A DNA stretch of 64,000 nt from a virus. The stretch covers positions 1 through 64,000 of IMG/VR virus record IMGVR_UViG_3300008954_000005; one strand, given 5' to 3'. Below the pieces are notes generated by a model. That model did no database searches, had not been told where the DNA came from, and worked only from the letters and a program-made list of their open reading frames with translations. A program made the translations under genes and the position numbers. Below, in pieces: positions 3,306 through 43,875 of the stretch (positions are counted from its first letter, which is position 1; every line of letters starts with the position of its first letter).

Positions 3306-3320
3306 GGTATAAGAATTATG
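3306..3320 (+). promoter_or_regulatory. Promoter-like motif GGTATAAGAATTATG
   Basis: The best-conserved copy of the recurring motif, 38 bases upstream of the start at 3358. Nearly identical copies occur at 4439 and 5007, each before a separate gene, which supports a promoter role. Confidence 0.6.
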
Positions 3321-11745: not shown

Positions 11746-12291
11746 CTATGTAGTTATTTTATAACCATGTGTAAGGTCGTTTAGCGCGTTTTGTTTGGTT
11801 GGGCCTCCCAAGAGAACGACCACATCTTTCTCTAGAGGCTCGGTCTCTAACAAGCGAAGACCTATAAAATTGATGAACTCAGTCCCTTCGTACAAAGGGA
11901 GGGTAAGCACAGACGGTATACCGAGCCAGTCCTTAAAGAAGTCTACAGAGCCAACGAACAAGTGCGTGGCTTGGTTCCCAGCACCATTCAGCTTAAGCAT
12001 GGCGTCCATAAGGGCGTCTCTTGGCGGCTTAGAAGAAACAACTTCCTCTAGAACTACCCGAGCCAACACTGATTCCGGCGCTTCGTCCGGTGGCGCAATG
12101 TGGAGAGAGTCGGATATGTCTTTATACCAAGACACTTCGATGGGCCTTCCCGTCCGTAAATGCACAGACTGCACATACGGTTTTGTTAGGACTCTGCGAA
12201 GAACCTCAATAATACCCTCGGCCGTAGAGGGCATGCTGAGTTCCTCGACAGAAAGAACAAGCGATTCGGGTACAGAAGAGGTCTCACTCAT
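11746..12291 (-). CDS. Hypothetical protein
   Basis: 181 residues, start coupled to the upstream stop (ATGA). It contains a region, residues about 20-60, with a helix-strand pattern (EGIIEVLRRVLTKPYVQSVHL), and a hydrophobic C-terminal half without a clear membrane helix. No family recognised. Confidence 0.55.
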   Translation of the reverse strand: MSETSSVPESLVLSVEELSMPSTAEGIIEVLRRVLTKPYVQSVHLRTGRPIEVSWYKDISDSLHIAPPDEAPESVLARVVLEEVVSSKPPRDALMDAMLKLNGAGNQATHLFVGSVDFFKDWLGIPSVLTLPLYEGTEFINFIGLRLLETEPLEKDVVVLLGGPTKQNALNDLTHGYKITT

Positions 12292-12911
12292 ATCTGATCC
12301 ACTTGCACTTTCTTGTTGGTCTTTTGTCTCAGTCTCTCAAGGTACTGAATAATAATTTCGGTCATGGTTGTGTCGTTCTGCGCTGCGTGCAGCTTCAACC
12401 ACTTATGCAAATCAGCGGATATTCTGATCTGCATCATTTTTTTACCAGTCATGTGCTTTATAACCTCCGGAATAACCCTGTTAAAACAGATTTCGTTTTC
12501 TAATTCGCCCGCGTACCGTCGTTTTCCCAGGAAAACCTGACAAAACCACTTCTTGGTGTTCTTGTTGGGCTCGTACGTAGTAATTGCGGAGAGTAGTTCC
12601 CTAGCTGGGGCACTTTGTGGGAAGGTGCTCGTACCAAAGCCAAGACCAGACCGCGCATATGCGGCGGCTGAGAACAGCTTTTTTGATATCTTAGAGTCTT
12701 CATGTGCCTTATCCCCACAATTCCTAGTTTTTGTTATACGAAGCCTTGGTGGGTTAACCCCTCCGCAATTCTTACAAGGCTTTCGTCTCGGTGTGTTCGT
12801 CCTTCTTGGTCGCCCACATGTTGCGCATACCCAATACTCATTAAAATTGCTGTGTAGACTCAGTTGACGTCCAAGCATCTGAGTCATCCTCAGCAGTAGT
12901 TTCATCTTCAT
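12288..12911 (-). CDS. Zinc-finger plus ribbon-helix-helix putative DNA-binding protein
   Basis: 207 residues. CATCGRPRR and CKNCGG at residues 29-50 form a likely zinc ribbon. Residues 160-200, MMQIRISADLHKWLKLHAAQ and following, have the Arc/MetJ ribbon-helix-helix pattern: a short strand, then two helices. Together they suggest a DNA-binding regulator, perhaps of the operon it is in. The start is uncertain: 12905 and 12878 also have ribosome binding sites. The first 70 bases overlap the preceding gene. Confidence 0.5.
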   Translation of the reverse strand: MKMKLLLRMTQMLGRQLSLHSNFNEYWVCATCGRPRRTNTPRRKPCKNCGGVNPPRLRITKTRNCGDKAHEDSKISKKLFSAAAYARSGLGFGTSTFPQSAPARELLSAITTYEPNKNTKKWFCQVFLGKRRYAGELENEICFNRVIPEVIKHMTGKKMMQIRISADLHKWLKLHAAQNDTTMTEIIIQYLERLRQKTNKKVQVDQI

Positions 12912-34579: not shown

Positions 34580-34930
34580 ATGAAGGAAAAAGGAGACACG
34601 GTAGACTTACTGCCGTTTGCTCAGCAAGTTAATGCTTCTCTCCAGAAGCAGAGCAAAGTAAAAAGTACGCTATATGAAAACTGGTTGGTGGACATCTACT
34701 TTGGGCCTAGCCCTACAGCAGATGAAGAACTACCAAGACTAGGTTTTATCGCTTGTGCATCGACACAAGACAAAGAGGCTGGTCCTCTCCCCAACTTGAG
34801 TAACTCAAGTGGGGTGCGAGTAGACTTCGACGAGAAGTCGGTTGTGTGGTGGTCCGGTGACTCACTGGACGATTTAGAATCTAAAATCACAAACGCATTC
34901 CCAGAAATTACCTGGAATAGGGAGGACTAA
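34580..34930 (+). CDS. Hypothetical protein preceding the ubiquitin-like gene
   Basis: 116 residues; the ATG at 34580 has GTGGAG six bases upstream, better than the GTG at 34568. Alpha/beta with a VVWWSGDSLDDLESK helix near the end. The stop overlaps the start of the ubiquitin-like gene (TAATG), so the two are cotranscribed and probably linked in function. No family recognised; it could be a partner or target adaptor. Confidence 0.6.
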   Translation: MKEKGDTVDLLPFAQQVNASLQKQSKVKSTLYENWLVDIYFGPSPTADEELPRLGFIACASTQDKEAGPLPNLSNSSGVRVDFDEKSVVWWSGDSLDDLESKITNAFPEITWNRED

Positions 34931-35361
34931 TGTCCACAGAGAATCTTCAAGAACAGCTTGATTCAGCAATCAAGACCAGAGATGAACATGTTCAAAATAT
35001 GGGAGATGAATTCAGCCAAGCCAATATGGATCGGCTGTCTGCACTCCAGAAGGCCGTTGCATCCGCAAAGACTGCCTTGGAAACCGCCGCTGCTGCAGCG
35101 GCTGCTCCTGCGGTAGAGGGAAATACCGACCTTTGTGTCGTATCTCTAATCCGAAGCGGAAAAAGCGACCGGGTCGTCGAGGTTCCTACGGATACCTCGG
35201 TGAGCGACCTTATGAATACTCTTGGTTGGCCAACCAACGACTTCACGTTTAAGCGTCGAGTCGGCCCAGGCCAAACCGTAGAGATTACCAATCTTGCAGC
35301 CACCCTCGGTACAGGTGATCACGAAATCTTCGTATCACCTCGTGTTGCAGGAGGCTTCTAG
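34930..35361 (+). CDS. Ubiquitin-like beta-grasp protein (PRTRC-C/MoaD-like) with Gly-Gly-Phe end
   Basis: 143 residues. Residues 1-50 are helical and 51-62 are Ala-rich, a likely linker. Residues 66-143 follow the beta-grasp order: strands LCVVSLIRSG and RVVEVPT, a short helix SVSDLMNTLG, strands FTFKRRV and EITNL, and a last strand IFVSPRV before AGGF. G141 and G142 are followed by one Phe, so the JAB protease encoded next door would expose the Gly-Gly. It would be activated by the E1-like enzyme and passed to the E2-like protein. A terminator follows it, so it may be made in excess. Confidence 0.75.
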   Translation: MSTENLQEQLDSAIKTRDEHVQNMGDEFSQANMDRLSALQKAVASAKTALETAAAAAAAPAVEGNTDLCVVSLIRSGKSDRVVEVPTDTSVSDLMNTLGWPTNDFTFKRRVGPGQTVEITNLAATLGTGDHEIFVSPRVAGGF

Positions 35362-35390
35362 ACTCTAGTCTAACTAGAGATTCCCTCCTT

Positions 35391-35428
35391 GGGGGTGGGG
35401 CTACTTCGGTAGCTTCACCCCCTTTTTA
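35391..35428 (+). terminator. Terminator between the ubiquitin-like and E2-like genes
   Basis: GGGGGTG and CTAC pair with GTAG and CACCCCC around TTCG, followed by TTTTTATTT. Read-through would supply the enzyme genes. Confidence 0.8.
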
Positions 35429-35444
35429 TTTACGGAGAATACCC

Positions 35445-36539
35445 ATGGCTTCAACAAGCAACACACAATGGGAATGGAGAGTTGACGACGACAGCGACAA
35501 TCTCGAATTCCTTCTATCTAAAATTATTGATGACTCCGTAGCCTCCTCCAAAGTCAACACAGTTGAACTGGAAACAGAGCTAGCAAAGCTCACAGCAAAA
35601 CGCACTGCTTGGGAGAGTAAGCTAACGCGGAGAAAGTCTATAGAGCAGTCTGTGCGAGAACGCCTAGAAAAACGACAAGTCGAACTCAGAAAAGCTCAAG
35701 ACGCCTTCCATAAAGCTAGGCAAAAAACTAGAGCAGTAGGCTACAAAGTTTCTCAGGCAGTTGAAGACTCAAGGGCTCTTAGTAATACCCTCGGACAGGA
35801 AAAGCTCTTTCTAGACAACTTCGCTGGTATCTACACAGAGGACGCCTTTAAGAACAGGGCCTTTATGGTGATGTCCCTGCGCGAGCGCATTGACTCATCT
35901 ATTCCCATCTCGTTCTCTCATGATAGAGACCAAAAGAAGATGCGGCTCTCGTGGGTCACTGGAGACATCTACATAAATAACTCCTTAGAGGGCGGTGTCT
36001 GGCCATTTAACTTTGGGCAGTACCGCGTAGAGGTCACCTTCAGCTATATGAACGGACATAGAGACGCCAGAGTGCTTATCCGTGGCCACCGAAGAAATAC
36101 CATTGTTTCAGGTGAGTACTTTCACCCGCATATCCGGAGCGATGGTACGGCCTGTCTAGGCAATGTCGCCAGGATGCTAATTGAGCACATGGCTAACCAA
36201 GACGTGGCCCAAGTCATTTGCACAGTTACGGAATATCTGTGTCACTACAACGAACAAGATCCGTACAGAAAACTGATGTTCTGGGGTGTAGCTAATCCTT
36301 ACGACCTCCCACACATCAACATGTACCAGTCTCACTTAGTGTTTGACTCAGGGCCAAAGAACCCCTGTGGCCTCTCACAATCTGACTGCATGGTTCAGCA
36401 TTTGACAGATAAAGCTGGGGAGTGCTCGTCGAGGAGCCTGCCCGCAGAGGTAGTTGTGACAGCAACATCCGTATATGAAAATCTTCAATCTTTTAGGGAG
36501 CGACTTAATGGCGAAGGTAACGAAGAAACCAACGGTTAG
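35445..36539 (+). CDS. E2 ubiquitin-conjugating-like protein with N-terminal coiled coil
   Basis: 364 residues, ATG preceded by ACGGAG. Residues 35-110 are a long charged coiled coil. Residues 140-300 contain a UBC-like core: strands with WPFNFGQYRVEVTFSY, then YFHPHI at 225-230 and DGTACLGN at 233-240. HPH...C matches the HPN...C of E2 enzymes, making C237 the probable thioester residue. It would accept the ubiquitin-like protein from the E1-like enzyme. It overlaps the JAB gene by 32 bases. Confidence 0.8.
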   Translation: MASTSNTQWEWRVDDDSDNLEFLLSKIIDDSVASSKVNTVELETELAKLTAKRTAWESKLTRRKSIEQSVRERLEKRQVELRKAQDAFHKARQKTRAVGYKVSQAVEDSRALSNTLGQEKLFLDNFAGIYTEDAFKNRAFMVMSLRERIDSSIPISFSHDRDQKKMRLSWVTGDIYINNSLEGGVWPFNFGQYRVEVTFSYMNGHRDARVLIRGHRRNTIVSGEYFHPHIRSDGTACLGNVARMLIEHMANQDVAQVICTVTEYLCHYNEQDPYRKLMFWGVANPYDLPHINMYQSHLVFDSGPKNPCGLSQSDCMVQHLTDKAGECSSRSLPAEVVVTATSVYENLQSFRERLNGEGNEETNG

Positions 36540-37506
36540 GTTCAGTCAAAAAGCCTACCAACAAATGTTTGCGTTAACGAACGCGTGTAAAATCGAAATC
36601 AGTGCTATGGGTATTGTTGCTACTGCCGAACAAAAAGAAGACGCGGGTGTAACTGAAGACTTCTATGTAACTGAGTTCTTTGTCATTGATCAGGAGTGCA
36701 CAGGCACGTCAACTGATCTAGATGATGATGCAATGGTGGACCTTCTTATGAACCTGCGTGATCAGGGAATTAAGTCGGAGCAAATGTGTGTTTGGTGGCA
36801 TAGCCACGTAAACATGGCCACTGCTCACTCAGGAACAGATGAAGCCCAAATCGAAAGATTTGATTTCGACACAGTCTGCATCTCTATTATCACTAATAAG
36901 AAGGGTGAGCTAAATCTGCGCGTGGACATGTTCCAGCCGTTTAGACACACCTTCGAGAAGTGTGATTACGTTCTAGACTTCGTAGATATCCTCCCAGATA
37001 ACTGGGCTGAGGAGATGGTCGCCACTCATGTAAATGAGAAAAAGATCATCCCGCAGAGGCTCAACGTTGTGAAATCACGATCACGCGGAGTTGTCACCGG
37101 ATACGGTGGGAACTGGGGTGGTTGGAGTCGTTGGGAAGATGACGATGACGAGCGTAACGTGCTTGGGGCATCCACCACTAGTGGTCGTGAAATCGTTAAG
37201 TCCTCCGACCTACTGAAAGAAGGCGATGACGATGACCTCCCGGCATTTGACGCCCTCGATCTCCCAAAAGAATTGGGTCATCTACAAGACGCGTGGGATC
37301 TAAATCTGCTCGACACTCAGGACGTAATGGAACTCTTTGCGAGATGGTATGCAAAAGAGTTGAGTACAGAAGAAGTTGTCCAAGAGCTAGAGGAAACCCA
37401 CAACATCCTTGTAAGCGATTTAAAAGCTGGAGACGATGAGGATCCGGCTGATGCTGTCGTGGATACTGAAGTAGATGACCTGTTAACTTTTGGAGGTACT
37501 GCATGA
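36508..37506 (+). CDS. JAMM/JAB isopeptidase-like protein
   Basis: 332 residues from the ATG at 36508, which has GGGAG seven bases upstream. The metal centre is complete: E30, H98-S-H100, and S108-x-x-D111 (HSHVNMATAHSGTD), exactly the JAMM spacing. Such enzymes cut ubiquitin-like proteins from targets or trim their C-termini. The C-terminal half, residues 190-332, is acidic and ends LLTFGGTA, itself resembling a Gly-Gly tail. It overlaps E2 and E1 genes on both sides. Confidence 0.88.
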   Translation: MAKVTKKPTVRFSQKAYQQMFALTNACKIEISAMGIVATAEQKEDAGVTEDFYVTEFFVIDQECTGTSTDLDDDAMVDLLMNLRDQGIKSEQMCVWWHSHVNMATAHSGTDEAQIERFDFDTVCISIITNKKGELNLRVDMFQPFRHTFEKCDYVLDFVDILPDNWAEEMVATHVNEKKIIPQRLNVVKSRSRGVVTGYGGNWGGWSRWEDDDDERNVLGASTTSGREIVKSSDLLKEGDDDDLPAFDALDLPKELGHLQDAWDLNLLDTQDVMELFARWYAKELSTEEVVQELEETHNILVSDLKAGDDEDPADAVVDTEVDDLLTFGGTA

Positions 37507-38165
37507 TTGACACCACGAGGCAGTCTGGAATTATTCCAGACGACCGCCTCTCGGACGTGTCGGTAGCGATCATCGGTGTGGGGGCCATTGGCTCTCACAC
37601 CGTTGAGTCGCTCTCAAAAATGGGAATCCGACATTTTCATATATTTGATGATGACGTTGTAGAAGAACACAACCTAGCCAACCAAGGCTATTTCCTACCC
37701 GAAATCGGGTATAAGAAAGTTGAAGCCTTAGCTAATCGTATTTCGGTTGGAACTGGGGCGGAGGTTGTTGCTGACGCATGTCGAGTAGAAGACAACCACG
37801 ACTTTACGGAACGGTACGTAATCTCTGCTGTAGACAATATGGCCTCTCGAAAAAGCATTTTCGAATCATTCCTCAACAGCACCACATCCCGTTTCTTTTT
37901 GGATGGTCGTATGGCGGCTCGGTTCGGGCAAGTCTACTTCGTAGACAAACTCAAACCAGAAACCATCGAAAAGTATGAAAACAGCCTATTCAGTGATGAG
38001 GAAGCTGTTCCCCTGCCGTGCACGGAGAAGGCCACAATCTTCTGCGCGTATGGGATTGCGTCTTTTATGTCCGCTCTTATCGCAAAGAGCATTATCGAAG
38101 AGCCCATTAAGTTTATGTCTGCGGAACTAGATTTCGCAAACATACTCCTGATGCAAGCTCTTTAA
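37503..38165 (+). CDS. ThiF/E1-like adenylating enzyme
   Basis: 220 residues, ATG overlapping the previous stop. The nucleotide motif GVGAIG lies at 25-30, the Asp cluster FDDD at 48-51, NLANQG at 57-62, and SAVDNMASR with D111 and R116 fits ThiF enzymes. C173 in LPCTEKAT is the best candidate for the catalytic Cys. At 220 residues it is a minimal E1 without the separate ubiquitin-fold domain. It would adenylate the Gly-Gly end of the ubiquitin-like protein. Confidence 0.85.
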   Translation: MIDTTRQSGIIPDDRLSDVSVAIIGVGAIGSHTVESLSKMGIRHFHIFDDDVVEEHNLANQGYFLPEIGYKKVEALANRISVGTGAEVVADACRVEDNHDFTERYVISAVDNMASRKSIFESFLNSTTSRFFLDGRMAARFGQVYFVDKLKPETIEKYENSLFSDEEAVPLPCTEKATIFCAYGIASFMSALIAKSIIEEPIKFMSAELDFANILLMQAL

Positions 38166-38959: not shown

Positions 38960-39004
38960 TCTGATCTCCCAATTGTACGCTTAGCCGTGCGGGCCTTATA
39001 GAGA

Positions 39005-39035
39005 GAGGGGGGTTTATCCCCCCCTCTTTCTTTTT
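39005..39035 (+). terminator. Rho-independent terminator
   Basis: A GAGGGGGG / CCCCCCCTC stem is followed by TTTCTTTTT. Confidence 0.8.
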
Positions 39036-39074: not shown

Positions 39075-39094
39075 TGACAGAGAATACCCTGTCA
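39075..39094. promoter_or_regulatory. Dyad TGACA-N10-TGTCA, copy 1
   Basis: A 20-bp inverted repeat with AT-rich spacer. Copy 2 begins 21 bp later, two helical turns, suggesting cooperative protein binding. Confidence 0.7.
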
Positions 39095-39095
39095 C

Positions 39096-39115
39096 TGACA
39101 AACAATAGACTGTCA
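39096..39115. promoter_or_regulatory. Dyad TGACA-N10-TGTCA, copy 2
   Basis: Same half-sites and spacing as copy 1, offset by 21 bp. Confidence 0.7.
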
Positions 39116-39154
39116 GTAAAACACTAGGTTTATCCGCTAGTTACGTATTTTTTA

Positions 39155-39168
39155 GGGTATAAGTACCC
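39155..39168 (+). promoter_or_regulatory. Promoter-like motif GGGTATAAGTACCC
   Basis: The recurring TATAAG motif, immediately followed by dyad copy 3, so a protein bound there would block transcription of the gene at 39226. Confidence 0.55.
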
Positions 39169-39188
39169 TGACAGACAATTACTTGTCA
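39169..39188. promoter_or_regulatory. Dyad TGACA-N10-TGTCA, copy 3
   Basis: Exact half-sites directly downstream of the promoter-like motif; a likely operator. Confidence 0.7.
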
Positions 39189-39225
39189 GTCCCTTCTATT
39201 CCCACAGTCCACAAGGAGGATTCAA

Positions 39226-40308
39226 ATGTCGATAAGGTTGATGAACACACGTGTTCCAGACCATATTCTTGTAAAAGGCGTGGTCACAAAAAGGTCTACG
39301 GCGTATTCAACCAACCTTTTCTGTGACCCAAACGACCCAGAAGAAACAGCTTACTTCGAAGATGAACTTACCCCGCTTGAAAAGGGTCACGTCTACCTTT
39401 GGAAAGAAGATGAATCTGGTGCAGTCTTAGTCCACATGCCATACAGAATTATGGATAAAGAAACTGGTTCCCTTCTGAAGGGTCTCAGTTCCTATAGGTC
39501 AATTGGGACTTTAATTGCTAGAAGCATACCCCAGAAAATGACTCTATCTCCAAAATCTTGCTTACAGGATTTTTTACTGAGCTATACCGATTTTAAAGTA
39601 TTCTCTCATAGAGTAGAGACCTTAGGGGGTACTACTGAAAAGGACTCAGTTGACCTAGAGCAGTTCCTGAAAGACATGCAGTACATCACTTCAGAAGCAA
39701 GTACCCTCCAAGCAAAAATAGGGACACTCAGGACAAAATACTGTATGTCTAGTTCAGAAGAATTATTGGACACAGAGGAAAAACTAAACGAAGTTCTTAG
39801 AGAGTTTGCCTGGGTAAGAGAAGAGATAACAGAGCTTGGTAACAAGCGGGTACTTATTGTTAAGAAGCTTGCCGCATTGAAGTGTGAAATCAATAGGACA
39901 ACTGACTATATCAGAGCTTCAGCGGAACAAGAGCAAGTACAAGAAGCCCTTAAGATGCTTAACCAAACCAACTTCGACAGAATTACCAGAGAAGCGATAC
40001 ACAAACACAATATCGATTCAGGCAGAGAACAGTCTACTGTGATACCTGCCCATATTGGTTCTCTGGCTAGCGCAATAGCGGAACTTAGAACGTACTACCC
40101 AGCCCTCACAAAGCTGACAGGTCATGGAGAGAACGTAGTCATAAGCCTCTCAGGTCTTAGGCTCATTCTTACACCAACTACCATAAAGGTAGAAGGAGAC
40201 CCATCAGTATTGAAGCCCTACATGGGTGAGGGCGCTACAGTAGACGCTTCCGGAAATGCTTCTCTTCGGAGAAGGAGGAGGAACATTGTACCAGATGTAA
40301 AGAAGTAA
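39226..40308 (+). CDS. Coiled-coil protein between dyad clusters
   Basis: 360 residues, ATG after ACAAGGAGG. Residues 1-120 are globular with strands; residues 125-250 form long coiled coils; residues 265-340 are again globular, ending in a basic RRRRR stretch. AT-rich codon use compared with the genes around it suggests a separate origin. No family recognised. The dyads on both sides suggest it belongs with the ParB-like protein, for example as a partition or packaging partner, or as the regulated target. Confidence 0.6.
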   Translation: MSIRLMNTRVPDHILVKGVVTKRSTAYSTNLFCDPNDPEETAYFEDELTPLEKGHVYLWKEDESGAVLVHMPYRIMDKETGSLLKGLSSYRSIGTLIARSIPQKMTLSPKSCLQDFLLSYTDFKVFSHRVETLGGTTEKDSVDLEQFLKDMQYITSEASTLQAKIGTLRTKYCMSSSEELLDTEEKLNEVLREFAWVREEITELGNKRVLIVKKLAALKCEINRTTDYIRASAEQEQVQEALKMLNQTNFDRITREAIHKHNIDSGREQSTVIPAHIGSLASAIAELRTYYPALTKLTGHGENVVISLSGLRLILTPTTIKVEGDPSVLKPYMGEGATVDASGNASLRRRRRNIVPDVKK

Positions 40309-40315
40309 CACACAC

Positions 40316-40335
40316 CGACAGAGTATAGATTGTCA
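40316..40335. promoter_or_regulatory. Dyad CGACA-N10-TGTCA, copy 4
   Basis: One half-site differs by one base. It lies just after the coiled-coil gene. Confidence 0.6.
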
Positions 40336-40388
40336 AGCCAATAGGCGGTTGATCTCGAAGTAAGTACAGGCAATTACTACGTTTTTAA

Positions 40389-40408
40389 CGACAAAGATTA
40401 CCTTGTCA
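40389..40408. promoter_or_regulatory. Dyad CGACA-N10-TGTCA, copy 5
   Basis: Paired with copy 6 at the same 21-bp offset as copies 1 and 2. Confidence 0.65.
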
Positions 40409-40409
40409 G

Positions 40410-40429
40410 TGACACACATTATATTGTCA
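40410..40429. promoter_or_regulatory. Dyad TGACA-N10-TGTCA, copy 6
   Basis: Exact half-sites; lies 85 bases before the start of the ParB-like gene. Confidence 0.7.
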
Positions 40430-40513
40430 TTTTATTCCTAATGGAGAACCTACTACCGATGAATATTTATGCAGCGGTATTGAGAACAAAACCAACAAAT
40501 GGAGGTTATTACC

Positions 40514-41413
40514 ATGCAGCTTGAGCAGCAGGTATTCCCAATTGACAGCATCGAGCGAAATGTGCTCGGTTTCCGAAACAGTCGATCCGATGTTGGAGAT
40601 ACGCGAGAACTTCGCGCCTCCATCATTTCCGATGGGCTGCTAAACCCCCCAATCGTTCACGTTACTACAGATGAAGATGGTAATGAGAGAGTCCTTCTCA
40701 TTGCGGGCTATCGACGACTCCAGGCTATTCTGGATGAGCGGCAGGCTCGAAGTGAGGGGGAGGATGAAGAGGCTTTCTTCGAAGACATCGCATGCGGTGT
40801 CCACGTTGGATCTCTTGAGTCCGCTCTCGCCCTGAACATTGCAGAGAACCTGCAGCGTGAAACGCTAAACTTCGCAGATAAGTGTGAAGCCGTATTCCGA
40901 CTTAATGAGCGCATCGGTAATCAGCAAGAAGTTGCTGATATGCTGAACATCTCTCAGCCCCAGGTGAGCGTTCTTTGCTCCACCTACAAGGGACTGAGTA
41001 CTGTTGCGTTCGATTGTCTTCGGCACGGTCGAATCACCATGGGACAGGCTAAGAAGCTTGCCAAGGTGGTGAAGGCTGACGGTACTCCAGACGCTGGTCA
41101 GCAGGATGAAATCCTTGAACAGCTTCTGGGACAGGGTAAGGATGAGGTTCCTGACACTAAGCAGCGTCAGCGAGCTAAGACCTACCGCTCGAAGAAGGAA
41201 GTCGAAGAGCTTCGTACCGCTCTTGCAAACGACGAAACCGGACTGGATCAGGAGCACAAGGACGCGGCGACCCGCTTCGTTCAGTGGTACTTCTGCGAAA
41301 TCGATACTGATGAACTCATTCATCGTATTGATGCGGTCGAAGAGGTTACGGTCGAAGATAAGCCCACCAAGAAGACGATTAAGCGTAAGCGTCGTATTCG
41401 GGTAGGTGACTAA
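40514..41413 (+). CDS. ParB-like DNA-binding protein
   Basis: 299 residues, ATG after TGGAGG. The N-terminal ParB/Srx domain has GLLNPPIV near 41, AGYRRLQA at 64-71 (the G-x-R-R CTP/DNA motif) and ENLQRETL at 111-118. A helix-turn-helix follows at about 136-158 (QEVADMLNISQPQVS). ParB proteins bind palindromic sites; the six dyads around 39.1-40.4 kb are the obvious candidates. No ParA is seen. PRTRC plasmid cassettes also join a ParB-like protein with ubiquitin-like, E2, JAB and ThiF proteins. It could control or segregate DNA. Confidence 0.85.
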   Translation: MQLEQQVFPIDSIERNVLGFRNSRSDVGDTRELRASIISDGLLNPPIVHVTTDEDGNERVLLIAGYRRLQAILDERQARSEGEDEEAFFEDIACGVHVGSLESALALNIAENLQRETLNFADKCEAVFRLNERIGNQQEVADMLNISQPQVSVLCSTYKGLSTVAFDCLRHGRITMGQAKKLAKVVKADGTPDAGQQDEILEQLLGQGKDEVPDTKQRQRAKTYRSKKEVEELRTALANDETGLDQEHKDAATRFVQWYFCEIDTDELIHRIDAVEEVTVEDKPTKKTIKRKRRIRVGD

Positions 41414-43006
41414 ATGAACCGGAGCGTCGAAGAACTCGACGTTCTCATTAGGGCTGCGCACCCGGTGATCTTTGTGGTTAGCCATGAAGAACATCGGGTT
41501 GCGCAAGCTCTTCATGAGATTGTTGAGCGCAAAAATAAAAGTTCAGAGGCTAACGCCTCTCTGTGGACATGGTCTATGACCGATGGAGCCTACTGCGGCG
41601 ACGAAAACTTCACAGATTTAGACGGTCCTCTTGAGATTCTTGAGCATATCGGAAAGTACGAAAAATCCGGTGTCTTTATGTTGAAGGACTTCGCGTATTT
41701 CCTGAATGAAGGCCCTGCCTATCTTGTTCAAAGAAAACTACGCGACCTCACGTCAGCTATGGGGCATGGAATTTCCATCGTAATTGTGGATAGTGAGTTA
41801 AACATCCCACCCCGTCTTGAGAAGCTTATGACCGTTGTGGACTTCGACCTCCCAACAGCACAAGAACTTGAGAGCTACACGGCGTGGGTAGTTAAGGACC
41901 ACCTAGGTAAGCAGAAGGACGTACCCCAAATTCATGAGGACGCCTGTAATGCTGCCGTAGGCCTTACTGCTACAGAAGTTGAAAACGTCTTCTGTAAGTC
42001 GCTCGCTAAAAATAGCACGCTTGATCCTAAAGTGATCATGGAAGAGAAGAAGCACATCATTCGTAAGTCTGGGGTGCTTCAGTACCATGACGTAGATAGG
42101 GATATGGCTGATGTAGGTGGACTCGCAACCCTTAAGGGATGGGTCAACCAACGAGGTCGGGCGTTCACCTCCAAGGCTAGAGAGTATGGTCTTCCACACC
42201 CAAGAGGAGCCCTCATTGTGGGAATTCCGGGTACTGGTAAATCCTTGATTGCAAAGTGTATCGGCGCATCATGGAAGATGCCGGTGCTGCGTATGGATGT
42301 GGGCGCTTTGTTCGGACAGTTTGTCGGGCAGTCAGAAGCAAATATGCGGAAGGCCCTGAAGACTGCGGAAGCTCTAGCTCCCTGTGTATTGTGGATTGAT
42401 GAACTCGAAAAGGGTTTTGGTAGTGCGGGTGGTGGGGGTGCTCACGATAGCGGAACCTCTGCCCGTGTGTTTGGTAGCTTCCTATCTTGGATGCAGGAGA
42501 AAACTTCTCCTGTATTCGTAGTTGCTACCGCAAATGACGTAAGCCAACTTCCACCAGAGATGCTTAGAAAAGGAAGATTTGACGAATTGTTTTTCGTAGA
42601 CCTTCCAAATGAAGCAGACAGGAAGGAAGTATTCCGTATCCACATTAGCAGGCTGGGGAGAGACCCAGACATGTTTGATCTCGGTGATCTTGTCAAACTC
42701 ACGAACGGTTTTACCGGCGCTGAGATTGAGCAAGTGATCGTTGACGGTTTATTCTTGGCCTTTGATGAGGACAGGGAACCAACCCTAAATGATTATTCAA
42801 TTGCTGCTGCTAGGACAGTCCCAATCTCCAAAACAATGGAGAAGAAGATTGAAGCTCTTCGTGGCTGGGCAAATGGTCGTGCTCTCATGGCCAATGAGTC
42901 TGACAAGCGAAAGAACGCTCCTACAAGCAGAGCGGCCAAGCGTGAAGGACGAGTCAAGCCAACAACAGGCTCTGACTGGTCCGGTCTGAAGAAGAAGGCA
43001 AATTGA
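41414..43006 (+). CDS. Ycf46-like AAA+ ATPase
   Basis: 530 residues, ATG one base after the ParB stop. Residues 1-230 are the degenerate N-terminal half of Ycf46-type proteins. The AAA+ core has Walker A GIPGTGKS at 270-277, Walker B VLWIDELEK near 327, TANDVSQLPPEMLRKGRFDE with the arginine finger near 390, and FTGAEIEQ as sensor 2. Such ATPases remodel proteins. Together with the DUF2997 and DUF1257 genes downstream it forms a trio known from cyanobacteria and plastids. The substrate may be proteins tagged by the ubiquitin-like system. Confidence 0.88.
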   Translation: MNRSVEELDVLIRAAHPVIFVVSHEEHRVAQALHEIVERKNKSSEANASLWTWSMTDGAYCGDENFTDLDGPLEILEHIGKYEKSGVFMLKDFAYFLNEGPAYLVQRKLRDLTSAMGHGISIVIVDSELNIPPRLEKLMTVVDFDLPTAQELESYTAWVVKDHLGKQKDVPQIHEDACNAAVGLTATEVENVFCKSLAKNSTLDPKVIMEEKKHIIRKSGVLQYHDVDRDMADVGGLATLKGWVNQRGRAFTSKAREYGLPHPRGALIVGIPGTGKSLIAKCIGASWKMPVLRMDVGALFGQFVGQSEANMRKALKTAEALAPCVLWIDELEKGFGSAGGGGAHDSGTSARVFGSFLSWMQEKTSPVFVVATANDVSQLPPEMLRKGRFDELFFVDLPNEADRKEVFRIHISRLGRDPDMFDLGDLVKLTNGFTGAEIEQVIVDGLFLAFDEDREPTLNDYSIAAARTVPISKTMEKKIEALRGWANGRALMANESDKRKNAPTSRAAKREGRVKPTTGSDWSGLKKKAN

Positions 43007-43875
43007 GTCGCGGGCGGCATCATACTGGAATAATCCAGCTAGACGAATTTCTTCAGGGAGGTCTTCCTTCGGGTATCTGCGAAGTTATCGGGGAAGACGC
43101 GAGTGGGAAATCTACGTTGGGGTTTAGTGTGATGAGGGAGGCCTCTTTAAGGGGCCTCCCAACCGCCTTGATTCATACGGAAGGGTATCCCGATAAAGGG
43201 TATATCCGTAGGTCCGGTCCAACCGAATGCTTAGTTAGTGTACCTACTAACGCCGAAGCAGCTATCGAATCTGCCCACGTTTCCCTCCTTAGTGGGTGTG
43301 TGATCGTAGTGATCGATTCTCTTTCGGCTGCTGAGTCTGTATGCGATCAGGCTCAAGTTGTCGGTGACCGTGTCCCTTTCGCTGCTAGGAAGATGGCTTA
43401 CCATGGCCTTAGTATCCTCCGAGAAGAAGCCTTAAAAAGAAACGCATTGGTGCTGGTCGTGAATCAGCTAAGAACGCCTATCCAATCCCTAGTGCCCACA
43501 CCCTGTTCCTCATTTGAGGGGACTATAAACAGGTTGTGTGCCGTGCGGATAAGGACCGTTAGAGAAACCACCAGAAATGAGTATGGGGAGCTTGCCTACC
43601 TAAAGGTGCGGTTCAACATCTATCGCTCATTGGTTTCTCCCCCAAGTGACAGAGCCTACGGATTTCTCTTTAATCAAAAAGGGTTTTGTCGGGGCTTCGA
43701 ACTTATGCGTGCTCTATTATCGGCTAATATACTAGACCAAAAAGGCGCATACCTTATCGGTCAAGATGGCAAATCGCTAGGCCCTGGGTATCTAGGTGCC
43801 GCAGAGCAAATCAATAAAAATTTTGAACACTATCGGAGGATCTACGATGATCGAAGTCAAAGTAGTAGTCCATGA
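43003..43875 (+). CDS. RecA-like ATPase
   Basis: 290 residues from a TTG that overlaps the previous stop (TTGA). It has Walker A GEDASGKST near residue 30, VIVVIDSLSAA near 105 as Walker B and LVLVVNQLRTP near 148 corresponding to the RecA L2-proximal strand. The start QLDEFLQGGLPSGICEVIG is typical of RecA/UvsX-type recombinases. The sequence diverges from host RecA, so it is a phage recombinase. The coupling with the AAA+ gene is notable. Confidence 0.82.
   Translation: MSRGRHHTGIIQLDEFLQGGLPSGICEVIGEDASGKSTLGFSVMREASLRGLPTALIHTEGYPDKGYIRRSGPTECLVSVPTNAEAAIESAHVSLLSGCVIVVIDSLSAAESVCDQAQVVGDRVPFAARKMAYHGLSILREEALKRNALVLVVNQLRTPIQSLVPTPCSSFEGTINRLCAVRIRTVRETTRNEYGELAYLKVRFNIYRSLVSPPSDRAYGFLFNQKGFCRGFELMRALLSANILDQKGAYLIGQDGKSLGPGYLGAAEQINKNFEHYRRIYDDRSQSSSP

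Follow-up and report, generated by a model that had tools for sequence, protein, structure and literature searches.

Mirror-image sets of palindromic sites around an orphan coiled-coil gene in a group of large phages, putative operators of an XRE-type regulator

The locus and its six dyads

In the window, the 64-kb stretch of phage DNA analysed here (part of a 155,722-bp record, G000), an orphan gene that we call coil lies between two sets of three palindromic sites, or dyads, and is followed by genes for a ParB-fold protein, an AAA ATPase and a RecA-like protein. The features, in window coordinates, are these:

39000..39031, plus strand: intrinsic-terminator-like hairpin, an inverted repeat with a T tail, which ends the upstream Ubl/E2/JAB/E1 cluster
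39075..39094, unstranded: site A, outer left, TGACAGAGAATACCCTGTCA
39096..39115, unstranded: site B, left, TGACAAACAATAGACTGTCA, 21 bp from A
39118..39132, plus strand: second conserved block, AAAACACTAGGTTTA, adjoining site B and mirrored in the right arm
39135..39163, plus strand: promoter-like CGCTAG-N17-TATAAG, with GGTATAAG at 39156-39163
39169..39188, unstranded: site C, inner left, TGACAGACAATTACTTGTCA, 73 bp from B
39226..40308, plus strand: coil, orphan gene, 360 aa
40316..40335, unstranded: site C', inner right, CGACAGAGTATAGATTGTCA, directly 3' of the coil stop codon
40360..40386, minus strand: mirror copy of the second block, AAAAACGTAG ... ACTTAC on the minus strand
40389..40408, unstranded: site B', right, CGACAAAGATTACCTTGTCA, 73 bp from C'
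40410..40429, unstranded: site A', outer right, TGACACACATTATATTGTCA, 21 bp from B'
40499..41413, plus strand: gene for the ParB-fold protein, with an N-terminal ParB domain, GYRR and ENLQR motifs and a ParB HTH
41414-43006: AAA ATPase gene, after parB
43003-43875: RecA-like gene, after the AAA ATPase gene

The strong terminator-like hairpin stands directly before the array and would insulate the module from the upstream cluster.

The six 20-bp dyads have the form YGACA-N10-TGTCA and start at 39075, 39096, 39169, 40316, 40389 and 40410, exactly where a sequence-only reading of this DNA had placed them; four match TGACA-N10-TGTCA exactly, and those at 40316 and 40389 differ by one base, with C for the first T. 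Against a first-order Markov background of the same composition as the window, the pattern [CT]GACA-N10-TGTC[AG] is expected 0.003 times per 1.4 kb and 0.12 times per 64 kb. It was observed six times, all at the locus, and a scan of the rest of the 64-kb window returned no match. When spacer lengths were compared, the enrichment was limited to N10. A genome-wide scan, which the same reading had proposed as a check, found that the motif is not equally frequent elsewhere: the 155,722-bp record holds only two matches beyond the locus, at 81237 and 87404, each within coding sequence. The first sits in an RNA polymerase gene and was rejected as a functional site, being regarded as chance; the second is discussed below. 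A seventh copy, reduced to GACA-N10-TGTC, lies at 39731 within coil, and is not conserved as a site. In the relatives' genomes dyads are absent elsewhere save for isolated matches, and perfect dyads are confined to the locus except for 87404 in the window's genome.

The coil gene (43% GC, with GC lower inside the arrays) is predicted to encode a beta-rich N-terminal domain, a three-helix coiled-coil bundle at about residues 142-265, C-terminal beta hairpins and an arginine-rich tail, which in the model is basic and disordered. Modelled alone, the N-terminal domain reached a mean pLDDT of 85 and a pTM of 0.80. We found no family or sequence match for the protein, and fold searches with the whole model and with the N-terminal domain returned generic three-helix bundles and weak matches alone.

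Conservation and geometry of the arrays

Relatives were found via the neighbouring AAA ATPase and then by protein alignments, giving six other distinct IMG/VR phages with records of 50-181 kb (L016, L017 and L019 are the same three contigs as L008-L010, identical across the compared stretch). The gene order E1, unknown protein, coil, ParB, AAA, RecA-like is kept in all seven phages. Between the window and the six relatives, coil is 38-50% identical (35-80% among all seven phages) and ParB 49-73%. Both dyad sets are present in every one of the seven, with spacings of 21-22 and 72-73 bp and then 73-74 and 21 bp, and the inner sites C and C' lie 1128-1147 bp apart. A palindromic operator-like module preserved almost to the base pair around a gene with as little as 35-40% shared residues is rare. 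Neither DNA similarity to annotated phages nor, among these, any relative of coil was found; bacterial genomes yielded no relatives of coil or ParB, and single-sequence searches with the two proteins as queries recovered none.

In six of the phages the GACA core of the half-sites is nearly invariant. Among 70 half-sites (one 19-bp site of L008, which is one base short and so has an N9 spacer, was excluded from the tally), positions 2, 4 and 5 of the GACA core are kept in 70 and position 3 in 69; the sixth base is A or G, again in 69 of 70. Dyad positions 9 and 12 are nearly always A/T, while the remaining central and flanking bases vary, which gives the consensus TGACAR-N8-YTGTCA. The seventh phage (L007/G002) keeps the geometry and is the only one whose half-sites are relaxed, to TRRCAG. 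Across IMG/VR, a dyad pair at 21 bp occurs in 47 stretches and a pair at 73 bp in 40, and the combination of 21 and 73 was found, among IMG/VR contigs, only in the present phage group.

The sites are ordered A-21-B-73-C, coil, C'-73-B'-21-A', that is, as two mirror-image sets of three. The two 21-bp pairs had been noted correctly before, and the mirror order (21, 73 ... 73, 21) had gone unnoticed. Since 21 bp is close to two turns of B-DNA and 73 bp close to seven, the three sites of a set should face the same side of the helix. The mirror symmetry extends beyond the dyads, because the 53-bp B-C intervals of the left and right arms are inverted copies of each other: over all left-right pairs they are 43% identical in the inverted register, whereas other registers give about 19-31% and the direct orientation gives 20-31%. 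Two blocks, AAAACnnTAG and ACTTAC, are common to the B-C intervals of both arms in mirrored arrangement (39118-39144 and 40360-40386). Operators by themselves do not explain this block, which hints at an additional protein or a more elaborate assembly.

Mirror-image arms of three sites each, with TG...CA ends and a lower GC content inside, might also delimit a mobile or invertible element with coil as cargo, in which case they would be terminal inverted repeats that serve as binding sites for a transposase or recombinase. Terminal inverted repeats of the Mu/Tn7 type likewise carry multiple protein-binding sites per end, and their ends are mirrored. Here, however, the sites are palindromic and keep a fixed genomic place, and neither their location nor their orientation with respect to parB differs among the seven phages. 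No transposase lies inside, there is no clear target duplication, and tyrosine integrase (PF00589), looked for in the seven records, was found in none. We dropped this reading as scarcely credible, because place and orientation are fixed and the integrase is absent.

The arms differ in one respect. Only the left arm has a motif with the consensus GGCTAC-N17-TATAAG, and in each of the seven phages 5 bp separate its end from site C; the right arm has no counterpart of the -10 element. The earlier observation that one dyad abuts a promoter-like motif is thus borne out, with GGTATAAG at 39156-39163, 5 bp ahead of the site at 39169. A scan for the sigma-70 consensus found no promoter, and GGTATAAG emerged from comparison among the relatives. 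It occurs ten times in the genome (window positions 3306, 8366, 25109, 27809, 28432, 33579, 37708 and 39156; G000 positions 83048 and 87124), several copies being intergenic, ahead of genes and followed by TTTG. Because of these ten copies, several of them intergenic, GGTATAAG looks like a promoter element, probably of a phage-specific class. With the predicted promoter 5 bp upstream, site C should cover the start of coil transcription.

Candidate binding proteins

The protein encoded next to the arrays is, judged by its sequence, a true ParB-fold protein with CTP-pocket-like motifs (PHROG ParB-like, E 3e-13; profile match to Thermus Spo0J, E 4e-7), and the sequence-only reading had proposed that the dyads are a centromere-like or operator cluster for it. 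As a parS-like centromere, they would load the ParB-fold protein, perhaps with coil as a partner, and so organise or segregate phage DNA. The dyads lie 70 bp to 1.4 kb upstream of parB, and clustered dedicated sites beside the gene are typical of parS; the protein has the N-terminal and HTH domains with conserved GYRR and ENLQR motifs, and its HTH helix (SQPQVSV) is as invariant as the dyads of six phages. The half-sites, however, are separated by 8 poorly conserved bases and do not form a contiguous palindrome; in canonical parS (TGTTTCACGTGAAACA) they adjoin (PMC8367383), and clamp accumulation was blocked for the ParB-like protein ParT when one turn was placed between the parS half-sites (PMC12260392). 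Nor was a ParA-like ATPase found: PF13614, the one family that the test covered, is absent from all seven records, some of which may be incomplete, and present in 14 of 14 control genomes. Site specificity does not track ParB either, given that the L007/G002 protein has no change at 112 otherwise invariant columns despite its altered half-sites, and a centromere would not require that a dyad overlap a promoter. The locus therefore shares with ParB-parS loci a ParB-fold protein with CTP-pocket motifs beside a dyad cluster, and differs in the lack of ParA, the gapped half-sites and the specificity. We regard a parS-like centromere as unlikely. Of the earlier proposal, then, the operator part is supported, the dyads being conserved, essentially unique in the genome and, in one case, placed at a promoter start, and the part that made them a centromere for ParB is not.

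A broader variant would make the mirrored arms and coil, with ParB, a segregation or replication-start machine that works without ParA, its coiled coil bridging two nucleoprotein arms. We think this distinctly unlikely; a DNA-organising machine of this new type would have the AAAACnnTAG...ACTTAC block and the near-absolute spacing as its mark. Nothing relevant was found in the literature on phage Ubl systems together with ParB.

The coil protein might bind the arrays itself, autoregulating its gene and bridging the arms via its coiled coil. It is the one gene that the arrays always enclose, its product combines a coiled-coil bundle with a basic tail, and genes flanked by their own operators are common. 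No DNA-binding domain was recognised in it, however, and its models match no known DNA-binding fold, although this is weak evidence. Furthermore, the protein is roughly neutral (pI 6-7.7) and evolves fast, whereas the dyads are nearly fixed, and the four changes that are unique to L007 at otherwise invariant columns of coil all fall outside the N-terminal domain. We regard binding by coil as improbable.

A scan of the genome's proteins for other DNA binders gave one ribbon-helix-helix protein and one XRE-type HTH protein. The former (window 12291-12911, minus strand) combines a zinc-ribbon-like N-terminal part (CxxC...CxxC) with a C-terminal ribbon-helix-helix part, and is present in six of the seven records. 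That it, or some other phage or host regulator, reads the dyads is decidedly improbable. The ribbon-helix-helix protein is conserved and has Arc-like matches, but no phage, L007 included, departs from MQIRI in the strand that contacts DNA, and no perfect or one-mismatch dyad was found near its gene. A host regulator would hardly be expected to pair with so phage-specific an architecture.

The XRE-type protein (PF13560/HTH_3) is encoded at about 87464-87901 of G000, 47 kb from the arrays. It was found in six of the seven records, the seventh being a 50-kb fragment, and on three more distinct contigs. Among the nine XRE sequences compared, L007 departs from the other eight at exactly one of the columns on which they all agree: its recognition helix begins with alanine in place of arginine (S-R-E-T to S-A-E-T). 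In the half-sites of the same phage, positions T1, G2 and A3 are freed and C4 and A5 are kept. The replacement fits the loss of a contact to G, and the simplest reading is that an arginine-guanine contact was lost along with the guanine requirement. Comparison of sequences would thus predict which regulator reads the dyads, and by which arginine. This match is, however, a single event recognised post hoc.

The same holds for a dyad near the XRE gene itself, which is one homologous case, also noticed post hoc. The perfect dyad at 87404 of the window's genome lies just upstream of the XRE gene, and the closest promoter motif is 280 bp further upstream. Of the nine phages compared, four, all of clade 1, carry a dyad some 60-110 bp ahead of the XRE start, and none of the five in clade 2 does. 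We count it as supportive at most, because it lies within a conserved peptide of the preceding gene and is missing in clade 2, and it may be a coding coincidence. Taking these observations together, we lean towards the XRE protein as the binder of the dyads.

A predicted looping switch and its likeness to known systems

We propose, at about even odds, that the XRE regulator uses the six dyads as operators and would loop and silence coil through them, much as happens at lambda OL/OR. One dedicated phage regulator, most likely the XRE protein, would fill the three operators on each side as dimers, and the dimers on both sets would pair across coil to form a loop of about 1.2 kb. Occupation of the inner left site C would shut the coil promoter; repression would become tight and switch-like by virtue of the loop that reaches the downstream set. 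The right set, being upstream of parB-AAA-recA, may affect those genes too. The helical phasing and the mirror symmetry are compatible with a protein-mediated loop. The position of the XRE gene, 47 kb away and outside the arrays, speaks against such a switch, and the joint occurrence of XRE binding, repression and looping could, in our estimate, equally well hold or fail. The predicted regulation suggests that the coil protein must stay off for part of infection, and the arrays would mark this orphan gene as very tightly controlled in the present phage group.

Lambda CI is a precedent: this protein connects two operator sets, each of three, that lie about 2.3 kb apart (PMC5880393). The present locus shares with OL/OR two sets of three putative operators that flank a central gene region at kilobase distance, an inner operator that overlaps an inward-reading promoter (here predicted, with TATAAG-N5-TGACA in all seven phages), and a phage-encoded HTH regulator of the lambda-repressor type (here in six of seven records). 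In contrast to lambda, the enclosed gene has no recognisable HTH and the regulator is encoded outside the sets; the 21/73 spacing is strictly mirrored, an additional mirrored block is present, and the predicted loop spans 1.2 kb, not 2.3 kb. The 14-bp separation of the half-sites, centre to centre, exceeds that in lambda or 434 operators. There is also no sign of lysogeny genes, and a lysogeny switch is not indicated because the integrase is absent from all seven records. If the model is true, the locus would be a clean and small lambda-like looping switch outside the lambda-type phages.

The C proteins of restriction-modification systems offer a second comparison. Two of them, C.AhdI and C.BclI, are among the solved structures that match the XRE profile. 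C proteins are small XRE controllers that work on adjacent paired operators. In the present phages, however, no restriction genes were seen beside the XRE gene, the operators are six in two mirrored sets, and the regulator has an additional C-terminal domain.

The predicted switch sits in large, uncultured phages, which encode an RNA polymerase of their own and also bear genes for ubiquitin-like conjugation. The polymerase gene (G000:C1:76780-82497, L111:12780-18497, minus strand) encodes a 1905-aa protein that matches RNA polymerase beta and beta-prime and has an NADFDGD motif; by these matches it is a phage-encoded multisubunit RNA polymerase with fused subunits. Window 34930-38165 holds a ubiquitin-like protein candidate, an E2-like protein, a JAB peptidase and a ThiF/E1 protein, conserved beside the module in relatives, and is a candidate phage-borne ubiquitin-like conjugation system, in which the Ubl candidate was recognised by inspection of its sequence alone. 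One protein from window 1-47533 matches a SET domain (E 2.6e-9), which is unusual for a phage, and a 1465-aa protein encoded on the minus strand at window 49157-53554 matches phage tail sheath over its last 180 residues.
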